Shown here one piece after another: positions 48,175-56,313 of a stretch of 64,000 nucleotides of DNA (the stretch's first letter is position 1; the number at the start of each line of letters is the position of its first letter). The stretch comes from Polynucleobacter sp. (GTDB lineage Bacteria; Pseudomonadota; Gammaproteobacteria; Burkholderiales; Burkholderiaceae), in the NCBI RefSeq assembly GCF_030693775.1, contig NZ_JAUXZY010000004.1:372001-436000 (forward strand), in the 5' to 3' direction. The translations under genes and the position numbers were made by a program. A model generated the notes under the pieces. It saw only the letters and a list, made by a program, of their open reading frames with translations. It ran no database searches and was not told where the DNA came from.

Positions 48175-48579
48175 TTAAATAAAAGGATTCACGATCTGCA
48201 GTCGTTTTTCGATGGTTTGTCGGTGTTGCATGTCTTCTGAATACAGCCGTTCACATCCTGCCTGTAGTGCTGCAGCAATAATCATCGAATCGTAGTGCTG
48301 GTATCCGTATCTACGGGATACCATTAAGCCAATCTCGAATGTCTCTAGGTCAAGTGACCGTACATTAAAAGTCGAAGTAAATAAATCTAAAAACGACTCA
48401 AGCTCGGCGTGTGTTAGCTTAATTTTTCTCAGACTTGCTGACGTGAACTCATTAAGCACCTGAATGCTGATTACATTCGATTGCTGAAGATTGCGGCTAA
48501 CCCAATCTGACTTATTCTCATCCGAGGAGAGAAGATAAAGAAGGGTGTTGGTATCAAAAAATATCTTTTTAGCGTTCAT
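48175..48579 (-). CDS. vapC: PIN-domain toxin (VapC-like)
   Basis: A 134-residue PIN-domain ribonuclease, the toxin of a type II toxin-antitoxin pair. Acidic active-site residues are visible in FFDTNTLLYLLSS, LNEFTSASLRK, YDSMIIAAALQAG and LYSEDMQH. The target is expected to be RNA. Its start overlaps the end of the antitoxin gene by 11 nt, typical of coupled toxin-antitoxin genes. It lies convergent with rpoD, 25 bp from the sigma-factor stop. Confidence 0.88.
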   Translation of the reverse strand: MNAKKIFFDTNTLLYLLSSDENKSDWVSRNLQQSNVISIQVLNEFTSASLRKIKLTHAELESFLDLFTSTFNVRSLDLETFEIGLMVSRRYGYQHYDSMIIAAALQAGCERLYSEDMQHRQTIEKRLQIVNPFI

Positions 48580-48802
48580 TCAATTCAGATCGATCAAAGT
48601 GAAAATCGGCGGGCATGCGTCCACGGAATTTTCTCAAACCTTCAATCCTCTCTTGCAGGGATGGTTTCTTCTTTACTTGAAAATGTTTTTTATCGGCGAC
48701 ATGGATTTCAATGTCATCCCCTTCTTTCAGCTTGAGATGTTCCACAACCTGAGAGGGCAGTCGTATAGCTAAGCTGTTGCCCCACTTGGATACGATCATC
48801 AT
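48569..48802 (-). CDS. vapB: AbrB/MazE-fold antitoxin (VapB-like)
   Basis: A 77-residue antitoxin with an N-terminal swapped-hairpin DNA-binding domain (MIVSKWGNSLAIRLPSQVVE) and a charged C-terminal tail that would wrap the toxin. GGGAG lies 5 nt before the ATG at 48802; the longer frame to 48895 adds residues unlike the family. It is expected to repress its own promoter through the inverted repeat just upstream. Confidence 0.88.
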   Translation of the reverse strand: MMIVSKWGNSLAIRLPSQVVEHLKLKEGDDIEIHVADKKHFQVKKKPSLQERIEGLRKFRGRMPADFHFDRSELNER

Positions 48803-48811
48803 TTTTCTCCC

Positions 48812-48843
48812 ATAAGATATACATATAATAATGTATATCTTAT
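48812..48843 (-). promoter_or_regulatory. Operator of the VapBC-like operon: perfect 13-bp inverted repeat
   Basis: ATAAGATATACAT (48812-48824), six-base centre, ATGTATATCTTAT (48831-48843); the arms match exactly. It begins 10 bp upstream of the antitoxin ATG, and its AT-rich content could also hold the -10. This is the expected place for autoregulatory binding by the AbrB-fold antitoxin. Confidence 0.75.
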
Positions 48844-48911
48844 TGAATGGAAGCCACCGCAAGCGCCCTGTGAGCAGGGATTGCCAACCCTTCAATTACA
48901 ATGACAGATTA

Positions 48912-48988
48912 GGGCCCATAGCTCAGTTGGTTAGAGCAGAGGACTCATAATCCTTTGGTCCCAGGTTCAAGTCCTGGTGGGCCCACCA
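48912..48988 (+). tRNA. tRNA with CAU anticodon, probably tRNA-Ile2 (lysidine type)
   Basis: A full 77-nt cloverleaf: acceptor GGGCCCA with TGGGCCC, D arm GCTC...GAGC, anticodon stem GAGGA/TCCTT around loop CTCATAA, T arm CCAGG TTCAAGT CCTGG and an encoded ACCA end. The anticodon is CAU. Automatic pipelines may call it Met. The G/C-rich acceptor, the TTGGTC variable region and the GGTTCAAGTCC T arm resemble E. coli tRNA-Ile2 more than elongator tRNA-Met, so lysidine-modified Ile2 is preferred. The gene sits at the boundary of an accessory region. Confidence 0.93.
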
Positions 48989-52035: not shown

Positions 52036-52174
52036 ATTGTGCTGAGCCCATGGAAATCTTGTCAGACAATTTAAGCCATATTAGAGTGTAAATAAGGCAC
52101 AATATTTTTATATGTGGACATCATTTAATTCAGTCGTGGCACTTAATTCGCTTGCTGTGTAGCGTGTTAATCCT
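52036..52174. other. Gene-free stretch after ppc
   Basis: AT-rich DNA between ppc and the GlxA remnant. A short TTGTC/GACAA palindrome lies near 52059-52069. No gene or convincing terminator is visible. With the remnant and its tail, the gene-poor stretch spans 52036-52346. Confidence 0.5.
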
Positions 52175-52285
52175 ATGCGTAATATTACTATTGGCATCCT
52201 CGTATTTCCGCGCTTTCAACTGCTTGATTTGGCCGGTACGGGCGAACACCACCCCCAAATAGACCCTATTTTGGCTCGCATTGAC
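52175..52285 (+). pseudogene. Remnant of a GlxA/DJ-1-PfpI-type regulator (N-terminus only)
   Basis: From the ATG at 52175 the frame reads MRNITIGILVFPRFQLLDLAG, matching the start of GlxA-type regulators that have a DJ-1/PfpI domain followed by an AraC helix-turn-helix. After residue 21 the similarity stops and the frame ends at 52285. The rest of the gene (about 300 residues) is absent; the next gene, the AAA+ ATPase, starts 62 bp later. This looks like a gene cut by insertion or deletion at the left edge of the ATPase-hydrolase pair. Confidence 0.65.
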
Positions 52286-52346
52286 TGCCGTCAAGCATGT
52301 TTCAGGCCTAGCTTTCTATGATTTATTAAAAGAGTAAAAAGAACAC

Positions 52347-53987
52347 ATGGAATTCGAAATACCAGAAACCCTGGCCAATGCGCTACTTGGAACGGTCAAT
52401 GAAGATTCGCCGCTTGCTAAGCGGCTGAGCGAGTACGGCCGTTCCCGAGGCAAACGTGTGGTGCCCAGCCACCTTTTCGACGCCACCTCACTTAACACAC
52501 TCTACGGCCTGTGTCGTACGGCCAACGAGCGTGAGCTGATGTTCCAAATGTTGGCGCTGGACAATATCCACGCCGCACCGGCTGCCCGAAAAATCCCCAG
52601 CTTGGAGCATCTGATCCCCGGTCTGATCGCTTGGCTGTCGCGTGACCTGATCGATGGCTGGCTCTATAGGCTCGGCAAGGATGGTGTGTTGCTGCCCTGG
52701 CTGGTCCATTCCATGCGCTATGTGCAGCCTGTCGATAGTGCAGCTTACGTCATCATCGGTCTTCTGGCTAATACCTTGCAGGCTGCAGAACGGGGGCCGG
52801 TTACCGATCCGAGGCTAAGGCGTACTGGCATGACCTACAGCATCACCTTTTATGCCGAAGATATTCTGGATTGCACGATTCCCGAATTGATGACAGGTTA
52901 TGGTTACTTCAAAGAATGTGCGGAATTCAAAAACGAATACGAGGCACACTTAAAGCGTTTCATGCAGATGCAGCCGAAGTTTGGTGCGCAGTTTACTGTT
53001 TCTGGCACTGTCTGGGTGTCCAGCGAAGGGCCTCGTCCACAACTCGAATGCATGCGGCTGCAGGCAGGCACGACAGCCCGCTGCGTCAATGACGAAGAGC
53101 TGCTGGAACGCCACTTTGATACCACCGCCGATGCAAGCTTCTGGCGCGGAAGCGGTATCAATGAGGGTTTTGAACGGATTCCCCAGCATTGCTATCTACA
53201 CCTATTTCACCTGGATTACCACCGCGGCGTATGGGTACATGTGCAACATGTTGAGTCCTATTGTTACAAACCAGAATTGCGTGACAAGCTGGTTCTGCCG
53301 CATGCTCATCGCGAGCTGATTGATATCTTGACCGCTGATCGTAACTTCCTGATGGAGGACATCGTCGAGGGTAAGTCGGGCGGTACAACCATCCTGTGCA
53401 AAGGCGCGCCTGGCTTAGGCAAGACGCTGACAGCAGAGGTCTATGCCGAGGTCGTCCAGAAACCACTATACCGCGTACATTCTGGTCAACTCGGCGTGAC
53501 GGCAAGCTCAGTGGAAGCGAACCTTTCGAAAATCCTGCGGCGCGCGGCGCGCTGGGATTCGGTGCTGTTGCTCGACGAGGCCGACGTCTACATTCGCCGC
53601 CGCGACAACGATCTGCAGCACAACGCCATCGTGGCTGAGTTTCTGCGTACCCTCGAGTACTTCAACGGCTTGCTGTTCATGACTACCAACCGCGTAGCCG
53701 ACATTGATGACGCCGTCTTGTCGCGCTGTATCGCCATCATCCAGTTCGAGACACCGACACAAGTGCAGGCGAAACAACTATGGAAATCGCTAGCGCAGCA
53801 GTTCAACACTGAATTACCCGACGACCTAGTTGAGCGCTTGACAATAACCTACGCAGCTGCCAGCGGCCGCGATATCAAGGAGTTACTCAAGCTGACGCTC
53901 AAGTTTTGTAAGGGTAGGAATTTATTGCTCAGCGAGGAAGCCTTTGCTCAGTGCGCGGCTTTCCGCAGCATCGGTAAGCCTGTTTAA
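52347..53987 (+). CDS. AAA+ ATPase with uncharacterised N-terminal region
   Basis: A 546-residue protein whose C-terminal half is an AAA+ module: Walker A GAPGLGKT (353-360), Walker B VLLLDEAD (406-413), sensor 1 TTN (446-448) and an arginine-finger candidate in LSRC (R460). The segment before Walker A (LVLPHAHRELIDILT, DIVEGKSGGTTILCKG) and after it (TAEVYAEVVQKPLYRVHSGQ) resembles a family of AAA ATPases frequent in fungi, in which a beta-rich domain precedes the module. The N-terminal 340 residues are not recognised; no membrane helix or nuclease motif is evident. GC and CTG/CGC codons are clearly higher than in ppc or dadA on either side. The next gene starts 1 bp after its stop, so the two very likely act together. 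Confidence 0.85.
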   Translation: MEFEIPETLANALLGTVNEDSPLAKRLSEYGRSRGKRVVPSHLFDATSLNTLYGLCRTANERELMFQMLALDNIHAAPAARKIPSLEHLIPGLIAWLSRDLIDGWLYRLGKDGVLLPWLVHSMRYVQPVDSAAYVIIGLLANTLQAAERGPVTDPRLRRTGMTYSITFYAEDILDCTIPELMTGYGYFKECAEFKNEYEAHLKRFMQMQPKFGAQFTVSGTVWVSSEGPRPQLECMRLQAGTTARCVNDEELLERHFDTTADASFWRGSGINEGFERIPQHCYLHLFHLDYHRGVWVHVQHVESYCYKPELRDKLVLPHAHRELIDILTADRNFLMEDIVEGKSGGTTILCKGAPGLGKTLTAEVYAEVVQKPLYRVHSGQLGVTASSVEANLSKILRRAARWDSVLLLDEADVYIRRRDNDLQHNAIVAEFLRTLEYFNGLLFMTTNRVADIDDAVLSRCIAIIQFETPTQVQAKQLWKSLAQQFNTELPDDLVERLTITYAAASGRDIKELLKLTLKFCKGRNLLLSEEAFAQCAAFRSIGKPV

Positions 53988-53988
53988 G

Positions 53989-54705
53989 ATGGCAACGTTT
54001 GACACCTCTTTCCTGGGAGATTCGGTGTTGGGCCGCCTCAGTTTTCGACCCGGCGCCGTACCCGACAAGCAAGCCTTACCTGCTGGTCGTCACGATCTGG
54101 GGATTGCTAGCGAGCGCGATGCTGTATTGATCGTGCCGGACGGTCTGCAGCCTGGAGTTCCAGTCGCTCTGCTCGTGATGTTTCATGGCGCCGGTGGCAG
54201 CGCCGACAAGGTGCTGCCATTCTTGATCGACCATGCGTATCAGCATGGCTTTTTGCTTTTGCTGCCGCAGTCTCAGTTTCCGACGTGGGACTTGGTCGTG
54301 GGTGGTAACGGCCCAGACCTAGAGCGGCTGGACAAAGCATTACACGAAGTGGCGTCACGTTTTTCTATCAATCCATCCCACTTGGGATTTGCTGGGTTTT
54401 CAGATGGAGGCAGCTATTCGCTGTCAGCAGGCGTGACCAATGGCGACGTCGTTAGCCACGTGATCGTATTTTCCGGAGGCTTTATGTCAGTCCTTCAGCA
54501 AAATGGTACGCCCCGCATCTTCATCGCCCATGGTTTAGAAGACGAGCAGCTGCCAATTGAAACGAGTGCGCGTCCTCACGTAGCCAAACTTAAGGCCGCA
54601 GGTTATGACGTAACCGCCTTGGAATTCAGAGGCCCGCACCGCATCGAGCCGCCAGTGGTTGCGTTGGCAATTGATTTCTTCCTGAAACCGACGGCGCAGC
54701 GGTAA
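53989..54705 (+). CDS. Alpha/beta hydrolase (esterase/phospholipase-like)
   Basis: A 238-residue serine hydrolase similar to phospholipase/carboxylesterase and PHB-depolymerase-type enzymes. The oxyanion region is VMFHGAGGSAD, the nucleophile is Ser138 in GFSDGG, with Asp185 in GLEDEQLP and His217 in RGPHRI completing the triad. There is no signal peptide, so it is probably cytoplasmic. The ATG at 53989 follows the ATPase stop by one base; the frame could begin at 53944 but would overlap it by 44 bp. Codon use matches the ATPase gene. Substrate unknown. Confidence 0.88.
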   Translation: MATFDTSFLGDSVLGRLSFRPGAVPDKQALPAGRHDLGIASERDAVLIVPDGLQPGVPVALLVMFHGAGGSADKVLPFLIDHAYQHGFLLLLPQSQFPTWDLVVGGNGPDLERLDKALHEVASRFSINPSHLGFAGFSDGGSYSLSAGVTNGDVVSHVIVFSGGFMSVLQQNGTPRIFIAHGLEDEQLPIETSARPHVAKLKAAGYDVTALEFRGPHRIEPPVVALAIDFFLKPTAQR

Positions 54706-54770
54706 CAAGCCATGCTTAAAACACAGAAATTCGCATGGGACCGAAAAACAGCACTCAGAAGGGCTGGGCC

Positions 54771-56131: not shown

Positions 56132-56304
56132 CCTCTGTTTTGGACCTGAGAGATTCACAAGCGAAGCTTGCTTGCTCCTGCGGTACCCTAGCCGACGTTT
56201 AGCGCTAGGGACTCTTCAGAGTGTTGTTCAAACATCGGTTCTTTTGCCTGAGAGTTTCCGGGGCGGTTGCTCCTTCGGCGCCAACGAGTGGTCTCTCCCG
56301 ATGT
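56132..56304 (-). promoter_or_regulatory. Tandem glycine riboswitch upstream of dadA
   Basis: Two aptamers read on the minus strand. Aptamer 1 (56304-56232) has GGGAGAGACC, GCCGAAGGAGCAA and AAACTCTCAGGCAAAAGAACC, closed by ACATCGG/CCGATGT. Aptamer 2 (56221-56132) has CTCTGAAGAG, GGTACCGCAGGAGCAAG and AATCTCTCAGGTCCAAAACAGAG. These are the conserved gcvT-type elements and the short linker is as in other tandem glycine switches. Glycine switches usually turn on glycine cleavage or amino-acid transport genes; here the target is a DadA-type oxidoreductase. Confidence 0.93.
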
Positions 56305-56313
56305 AACAAATTC

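Follow-up and report, generated by a model that had tools for sequence, protein, structure and literature searches.

A candidate two-gene module of an AAA+ ATPase and a putative serine hydrolase in Polynucleobacter sp.

Gene pair and locus

The window analysed here is a stretch of 64,000 nucleotides (372001-436000) of contig NZ_JAUXZY010000004.1 from Polynucleobacter sp. (assembly GCF_030693775.1). It carries two neighbouring genes, which encode an AAA+ ATPase and an alpha/beta hydrolase and are listed with associated features in Table 1. The open reading frames were re-read, and the coordinates and frames given for both genes in an earlier sequence-only reading were correct, as was the gap of a single base (53988) between the ATPase stop codon, ending at 53987, and the hydrolase ATG. 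The ATG at 53989 was taken as the start of the hydrolase; the mechanical ORF list uses an upstream TTG at 53944.

Table 1. Features of the gene pair and its surroundings in the window
Feature	Coordinates	Strand	Basis or remark
tRNA-Met(CAT), intact	48912..48988	+	3'-half repeats flank the pair-bearing segment in relatives
5' part of transferred segment, start of glxA/ThiJ-like regulator gene	52062..52346	+	blastn junctions, ORFs
AAA+ ATPase, 546 aa	52347..53987	+	ORF from ATG 52347, Pfam; relatives near full length in the best 80 of 573
N-terminal domain of ATPase, residues ~1-308	52347..53270	+	helical part, then beta-rich part, then strand-rich stretch
AAA module of ATPase, residues ~309-546	53271..53984	+	motifs
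Alpha/beta hydrolase, serine esterase type, 238 aa	53989..54705	+	Pfam/NCBIfam/PDB similarity, triad by motif

Encoded proteins

The only Pfam content of the ATPase is AAA, from residue 339 on (PF00004, residues 350-468, E 1.3e-15, 58.5 bits against a gathering cut-off of 21.2). Walker A (353-360), Walker B (406-411) and sensor-1 N448 were located. Across all 85 aligned rows, the window included, there is no variation at G353, G356, G358, K359, T360, D410, E411, N448, R460 and R508. R460 is a candidate arginine finger and R508 a candidate sensor-2 residue. The intact Walker motifs, sensor 1 and arginine-finger candidate reported before were thus borne out.

An AF2 model of the ATPase reached a pLDDT of 89.4 and a pTM of 0.83. 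In a structure search the fold of the AAA module resembles p97 D1, Rix7, FtsH and the proteasomal ATPases. The N-domain (~1-308) gave zero Pfam matches and, despite the confident model, no significant fold match in the PDB, which agrees with the earlier description of an N-terminal region without a recognised domain. Its residues ~200-308 are strand-rich and weakly like SH3/Tudor barrels. Residues 381-387 read QLGVTAS, and when they were aligned by eye with the pore-loop motif of p97, the usual aromatic pore loop 1 appeared to be absent. This is a mild argument that local remodelling fits better than full threading.

The hydrolase passes the Pfam family Abhydrolase_2 (PF02230) by a narrow margin (23.1 bits, gathering cut-off 23); its further Pfam matches are esterase families and weaker. 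By sequence it is closest to esterases in the PDB, namely LC-Est1C, a feruloyl esterase and carboxylesterases. NCBIfam matches stayed under their cut-offs (NF050058, short-chain PHA depolymerase type 1, 43.8 bits against 150; PRK11460, 40.3 bits against 191). All 78 aligned rows, the window included, carry S138, D185 and H217, which were assigned by motif as the putative Ser-Asp-His triad, so that the intact triad noted earlier holds. The lack of a signal peptide was agreed by eye, the most hydrophobic 19-mer being internal, from residue 46. None of 11 pattern matches was confirmed as a viral relative of the hydrolase. Both enzymes are expected to be active because their motif residues are invariant (85/85 and 78/78).

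Occurrence and arrangement

Among 339 Burkholderiaceae genomes searched, the hydrolase was found in 67, the ATPase in 69 and both in 67. The genomes were the same for each gene as far as listed; they are related, not independent, so that a Fisher test of the association exaggerates its strength. The first 4 to 8 candidates per genome were scored, and absences are not absolute. The two genomes with the ATPase only (G926 and G1105) matched as fragments alone, residues 263-371 and 198-543. One genome (G910) has the hydrolase together with an ATPase that matches in two pieces, and in another (G984) the hydrolase match is limited to residues 118-232.

The arrangement of the genes was followed in the best 80 of 573 confirmed ATPase relatives, at 59-97% ATPase identity, and the counts therefore describe the close clade only. 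The hydrolase is adjacent in 62 of these 80 loci. Order is hydrolase-first in 38, ATPase-first in 23 and convergent in one; 18 are unpaired. Simple gene calls place a 4-base overlap between the genes in 11 of the 23 ATPase-first pairs of this set. For 14 of its 18 unpaired ATPase genomes the hydrolase lies elsewhere in the genome (E<=7.2e-105). The remaining four are all labelled as MAGs, three without the hydrolase (L040, L058, L079) and one with weak matches only (L054). One strain, Polynucleobacter sp. MWH-HuK1, contributes two loci, since the pair is present twice in it, on two contigs (L023, L024). In one MAG whose ATPase is unpaired, the hydrolase is present as two genes on different contigs (G444:C289:2324-2995 and G444:C129:2113-2793).

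In plasmid records the ATPase adjoins the hydrolase in 10 of the 11 that have a hydrolase of at least 58% identity. The eleventh, from Methylobacterium bullatum, has the hydrolase and zero ATPase matches in the 16.7 kb examined.

The trees of the two proteins are largely congruent, not fully. The ATPase-first group forms a single clade in both, with support of 100 in the ATPase tree and 99/92 in the hydrolase tree, but three loci (L060, L072, L074) cluster in the hydrolase tree and not in the ATPase tree. Placing the hydrolase-first group on the ATPase tree takes 2 changes; in the hydrolase tree its support is 60/56. Both trees place the unlinked rows of the Oxalobacteraceae type close to the hydrolase-first group. 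With the genes occurring together in 67 of 69 genomes, in three arrangements, and both kept when unlinked, the two-gene unit proposed in the sequence-only reading is borne out. It was also proposed as undescribed; in the open-access literature searched, judged on titles and abstract openings, no description of the pair was found, and a search on IetAS returned no papers.

Composition and genomic setting

The pair has a G+C content of 0.550, against a background mean of 0.499 (SD 0.020, maximum 0.544) in 300 windows of 2.36 kb sampled over 400 kb of this contig, none of which was as high. Among 327 ORFs with 150 aa or more, the ATPase stands at the 99.7th percentile for GC3. CTG makes up 29/70 of the leucine codons in the ATPase and 10/28 in the hydrolase, compared with 17/122 in ppc and 1/33 in dadA; for CGC among arginine codons the figures are 17/39, 4/11, 18/66 and 6/20, respectively. 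The overall synonymous-codon likelihood of the two genes is no outlier (23rd and 10th percentile), and the label of foreign composition attached to the pair earlier therefore rests on G+C, with the raised CTG and CGC relative to ppc and dadA confirmed. The nearest loci outside the genus, among the best 80 of 573, are in Polaromonas, with ATPases 83-84% identical and a G+C content of 63-65%. This would fit transfer from a GC-richer donor, the direction being our inference.

Within the genus, the pair was found in 3 of 37 genomes of one sample. In several relatives it lies near tRNA-Met or its split copies, and repeats of 31-50 bp of the 3' half flank it in four loci (L019, L023, L025, L183); an rpoD-like sequence lies upstream in L019, L020, L025 and L026. 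In the window, where the tRNA-Met is intact, it is separated from the pair by ppc, and no tRNA-Met repeat was seen on the far side of the pair. Over 52062-54764 the window shares 95.7% identity with L019, and this segment is without ~1.5 kb found in L020. L020-L022 have a longer gene ahead of the pair (328 aa in L021), and the absence of the ~1.5 kb has left the window with a truncated start of a glxA-like gene (named by eye; ATG 52175), which stops matching at ~52237. The module was probably acquired in Polynucleobacter on an island at tRNA-Met.

In Polynucleobacter the tRNA-Met near rpoD resembles an integration hotspot, its 3' halves being repeated on the flanks of varied cargo (window 48912-48988, L019, L022, L023, L025, L183). 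Group I introns (Rfam RF00028, 53-57 bits) interrupt tRNA-Met(CAT) near the anticodon at L020:5845-6054, L022:4427-4636 and L025:7433-7654; the tRNA-Met of the window is free of one. No paper on a group I intron in a Polynucleobacter tRNA was found in the open-access literature searched. On the reverse strand of the window, the stretch from rpoD to tRNA-Met contains a pair of small genes at 48175-48895, by eye a VapBC-type toxin-antitoxin candidate, and 56226-56310 holds a glycine riboswitch aptamer (Rfam RF00504, 65.9 bits) directly upstream of the dadA-like gene. At L019:11116-13436 a gene of the choloylglycine hydrolase family (PF02275) follows the island, and the gene after that shares 45% identity with it. 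An integrase was considered for L025:11956-13320 and dropped, as Pfam gave zero matches.

Neighbouring genes

Neighbours were scanned with PADLOC and Pfam, up to two genes per side at 39 of the 62 paired loci. The scan covered 139 of 152 gene calls; the other 13 were set aside, among them suspected shadow calls, suspected repeats and some long proteins. In all, 49 PADLOC models matched one neighbour or more, and no model matches more than 2 of the 139 neighbours. The strongest single matches, among those listed, were SngC (1.1e-59), DpdJ (2.1e-59) and a BrxH-type model (1.6e-56), followed by PDC-S16 (9.1e-21) and a TIR effector (1.5e-16). These are suspected to be generic helicases and proteases. 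A defence-island setting was rejected, since no family recurs among these neighbours, although the single strong matches speak against the rejection.

For the pair itself, PADLOC returned IetA as the best match of the ATPase, an AAA-domain similarity, and zero families for the hydrolase at E<=1. The NCBIfam equivalog of an anti-phage ATPase (NF042959) scored 43.9 bits on the ATPase, under its cut-off of 510. The sensor-effector role in defence suggested by the sequence-only reading is not supported by these searches.

The neighbours are metabolic and regulatory and differ by genus, with ordinary or syntenic surroundings in several genera. Clusters of ORFs in 95 loci, among the first 40 clusters listed, gave no third partner gene, only generic families or genes of few related loci; the greedy ORF caller mislabels GC-rich loci, and the pair appears in fewer cluster rows than by tblastn. 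One and the same lpxK-like gene (by eye) occurs close to five unpaired ATPases (L031, L036, L040, L041, L045) and two unlinked hydrolases (L236, L241), perhaps a trace of an older common locus. Outside Polynucleobacter the module is a chromosomal or chromid accessory trait. The overall picture is closer to a stable function of the chromosome than to a cassette for addiction or defence, even though the Polynucleobacter copy seems to move on an island.

Wider ATPase family

In a sample of 399 genomes of the order, the ATPase was found in 24 at E<=1e-40. The hydrolase (E<=1e-20) is present in 3 of these, exactly those with an ATPase identity of at least 61%; the ATPases of the other 21 are 36-42% identical (tblastn). 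Homologues without the partner, named earlier as evidence against a coupled pair, are thus the rule among distant relatives, whereas nearly all close orthologues have it. Where checked, the hydrolase is missing throughout the more distant ATPases, those of phages AR9/PBS1, plasmids and other Burkholderiales. The ATPases therefore look like an old family of remodellers, within which the hydrolase seems to be the partner of a single clade.

The surroundings of the 20 distant ATPase loci inspected are ordinary. Small genes that look alike by eye overlap or abut the ATPase in 5 of the 20, with ~110-126 aa upstream and 92-105 aa downstream in the same five, and a gene of 158-160 aa lies upstream in 3 of the 20. 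Four of these small neighbour proteins were tested and gave zero Pfam matches. Examples lie at L249:5197-5568, L249:7259-7558 and L255:7530-8012. Each branch of the ATPase may have its own partner gene.

In viral contigs 111 relatives of the ATPase were confirmed. DUF7025 (PF22942), which we take to be a domain of fungal ATPases, is matched by 4 of 85 family members, distant phage ATPases among them; the three looked at individually score 36-53 bits, above the cut-off of 27. The fungal AAA lid (PF23232) reaches two of the 85 at 20.4 and 17.2 bits, under its cut-off of 27. The window ATPase itself gave zero DUF7025 matches at E<=1 in Pfam; its N-domain is 10-13% identical to the DUF7025 members, and hhalign of the N-domain with DUF7025 was weak (E 0.0036, probability 9%). 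The resemblance to a fungal AAA module claimed before thus has some backing at the family level, and homology of the window N-domain to DUF7025 is tentative. No papers on DUF7025 with AAA were found in the open-access literature searched.

Proposed function

The preferred reading, to which we give about an even chance, is a functionally interdependent two-gene module of an AAA+ ATPase with a family-specific N-domain and a dedicated, putative cytoplasmic serine hydrolase. Support for it comes from the near-perfect co-occurrence in the genomes sampled, the retention of both genes when unlinked, their close packing when linked and the invariant active sites. Against it stand G910 with its ATPase in two pieces, the Methylobacterium bullatum record, the four MAGs with an unpaired ATPase and no clear hydrolase, and the incomplete congruence of the trees. 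The ATPase would form a ring, presumably a hexamer, and would spend ATP on remodelling a protein or assembly that its N-domain recognises. The hydrolase could be the client, with the ATPase acting as its activase or dedicated chaperone; alternatively, the hydrolase may work alongside the ATPase and cleave an ester or thioester exposed by remodelling. A more specific and clearly more tentative proposal is an ATP-driven esterase machine, in which a hexameric AAA+ ring with a new N-domain feeds acylated proteins or polymer ends to a dedicated esterase or activates it mechanically. If this were true, the machine would be a specialised branch of a large remodeller family in bacteria, jumbo phages, giant viruses and perhaps fungi, each branch having its own partner.

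The main rival, which we hold to be unlikely though still to be reckoned with, is a toxin-antitoxin or abortive-infection pair like IetAS/SgiAT, with a toxic hydrolase restrained by the ATPase. The genes of addiction modules are normally adjacent, but here they are non-adjacent in 14 genomes (best 80 of 573), and G910 retains the hydrolase with its ATPase in two pieces. The patchy presence in Polynucleobacter (3/37) beside tRNA-Met repeats in relatives would suit such a pair. So would the PADLOC match to IetA (6.7e-16), yet it is confined to residues 313-518, the hydrolase is esterase-like and no subtilase, and no defence family recurs nearby. According to PMC5006074, the antitoxin of SgiAT is an AAA-ATPase and its toxin a serine protease of the subtilisin type; IetAS, which SgiAT resembles, has the same make-up.

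It is also rather improbable that the two proteins share one pathway, which keeps them together, and not one machine, for example as an esterase related to envelope glucans or storage polyesters and a housekeeping remodeller. An MdoG-like glucan gene adjoins the hydrolase in 7 of 15 unlinked loci (L234, L235, L237, L238, L240, L241, L243; MdoG identity was confirmed by Pfam for the two tested), and the hydrolase has similarity to an NCBIfam PHA depolymerase catalytic domain at 2.1e-11, far below cut-off. The MdoG link is however seen in unlinked loci only and may reflect one or two ancestral events, and the paired loci have no common pathway neighbour except generic families.

ClpX-ClpP is an AAA+ unfoldase-peptidase pair, and a similar arrangement, with the hydrolase as a peptidase fed by the ATPase, is regarded as very unlikely. 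The fold of the AAA module is like that of FtsH, p97 and the proteasomal ATPases, and the AR9/PBS1 homologue is annotated as 'ATP-dependent protease' in some records; PHROGs and Pfam, however, show AAA similarity alone and zero protease domains in the family, the PDB matches of the hydrolase are esterases, and the aromatic pore loop is absent by eye. That an ordinary AAA ATPase stands by chance beside an unrelated hydrolase, as the 21 of 24 distant homologues without it might suggest, is hardly credible, being contradicted by co-occurrence, adjacency, retention when unlinked and the trees.

AAA+ ATPases with dedicated partner enzymes drive protein quality control, enzyme activation and defence. 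With the preferred two-gene module, an anonymous ATPase family gains a concrete partner, almost one-to-one with a serine esterase, and the hydrolase offers a handle for assays. The pair may also open a route to the related ATPases of phages and giant viruses, and perhaps to those of fungi.

Comparison with known systems

Among characterised esterases, LC-Est1C (3wyd) and the feruloyl esterase 8jh8 are like the hydrolase family profile (E 9.2e-13 and 3.7e-9, respectively), and the hydrolase has the Ser-Asp-His triad. It differs from the Abhydrolase_2/PHB-depolymerase-like group in that NCBIfam scores are far under the cut-offs. We know of no esterase of this group that is tied to an ATPase.

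The ATPase has a close counterpart in the jumbo phages AR9/PBS1. Their family phrog_29662 matches residues 46-542 (E 2.9e-141), with 46% identity over 90% of the query, including most of the N-domain; AR9, unlike the window, has zero hydrolase matches within 6 kb of its homologue. A functional study of the AR9/PBS1 ATPase was not found in the open-access literature, and the available part of PMC5312081 is silent on it. The Klosneuvirus AAA ATPase A0A1V0SHU6 aligns over 467 columns (TM 0.64/0.79) at 21% identity.

Another parallel is IetAS/SgiAT, which follows the same plan of an AAA-ATPase gene with a serine hydrolase gene and has AAA-domain similarity to the ATPase. Its partner is subtilisin-like, while the partner here is Abhydrolase_2-like and of a different family; the IetA match leaves the N-domain uncovered, and the genes here can be unlinked. 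The module is best placed among the AAA-ATPase plus serine hydrolase pairs and not within IetAS.
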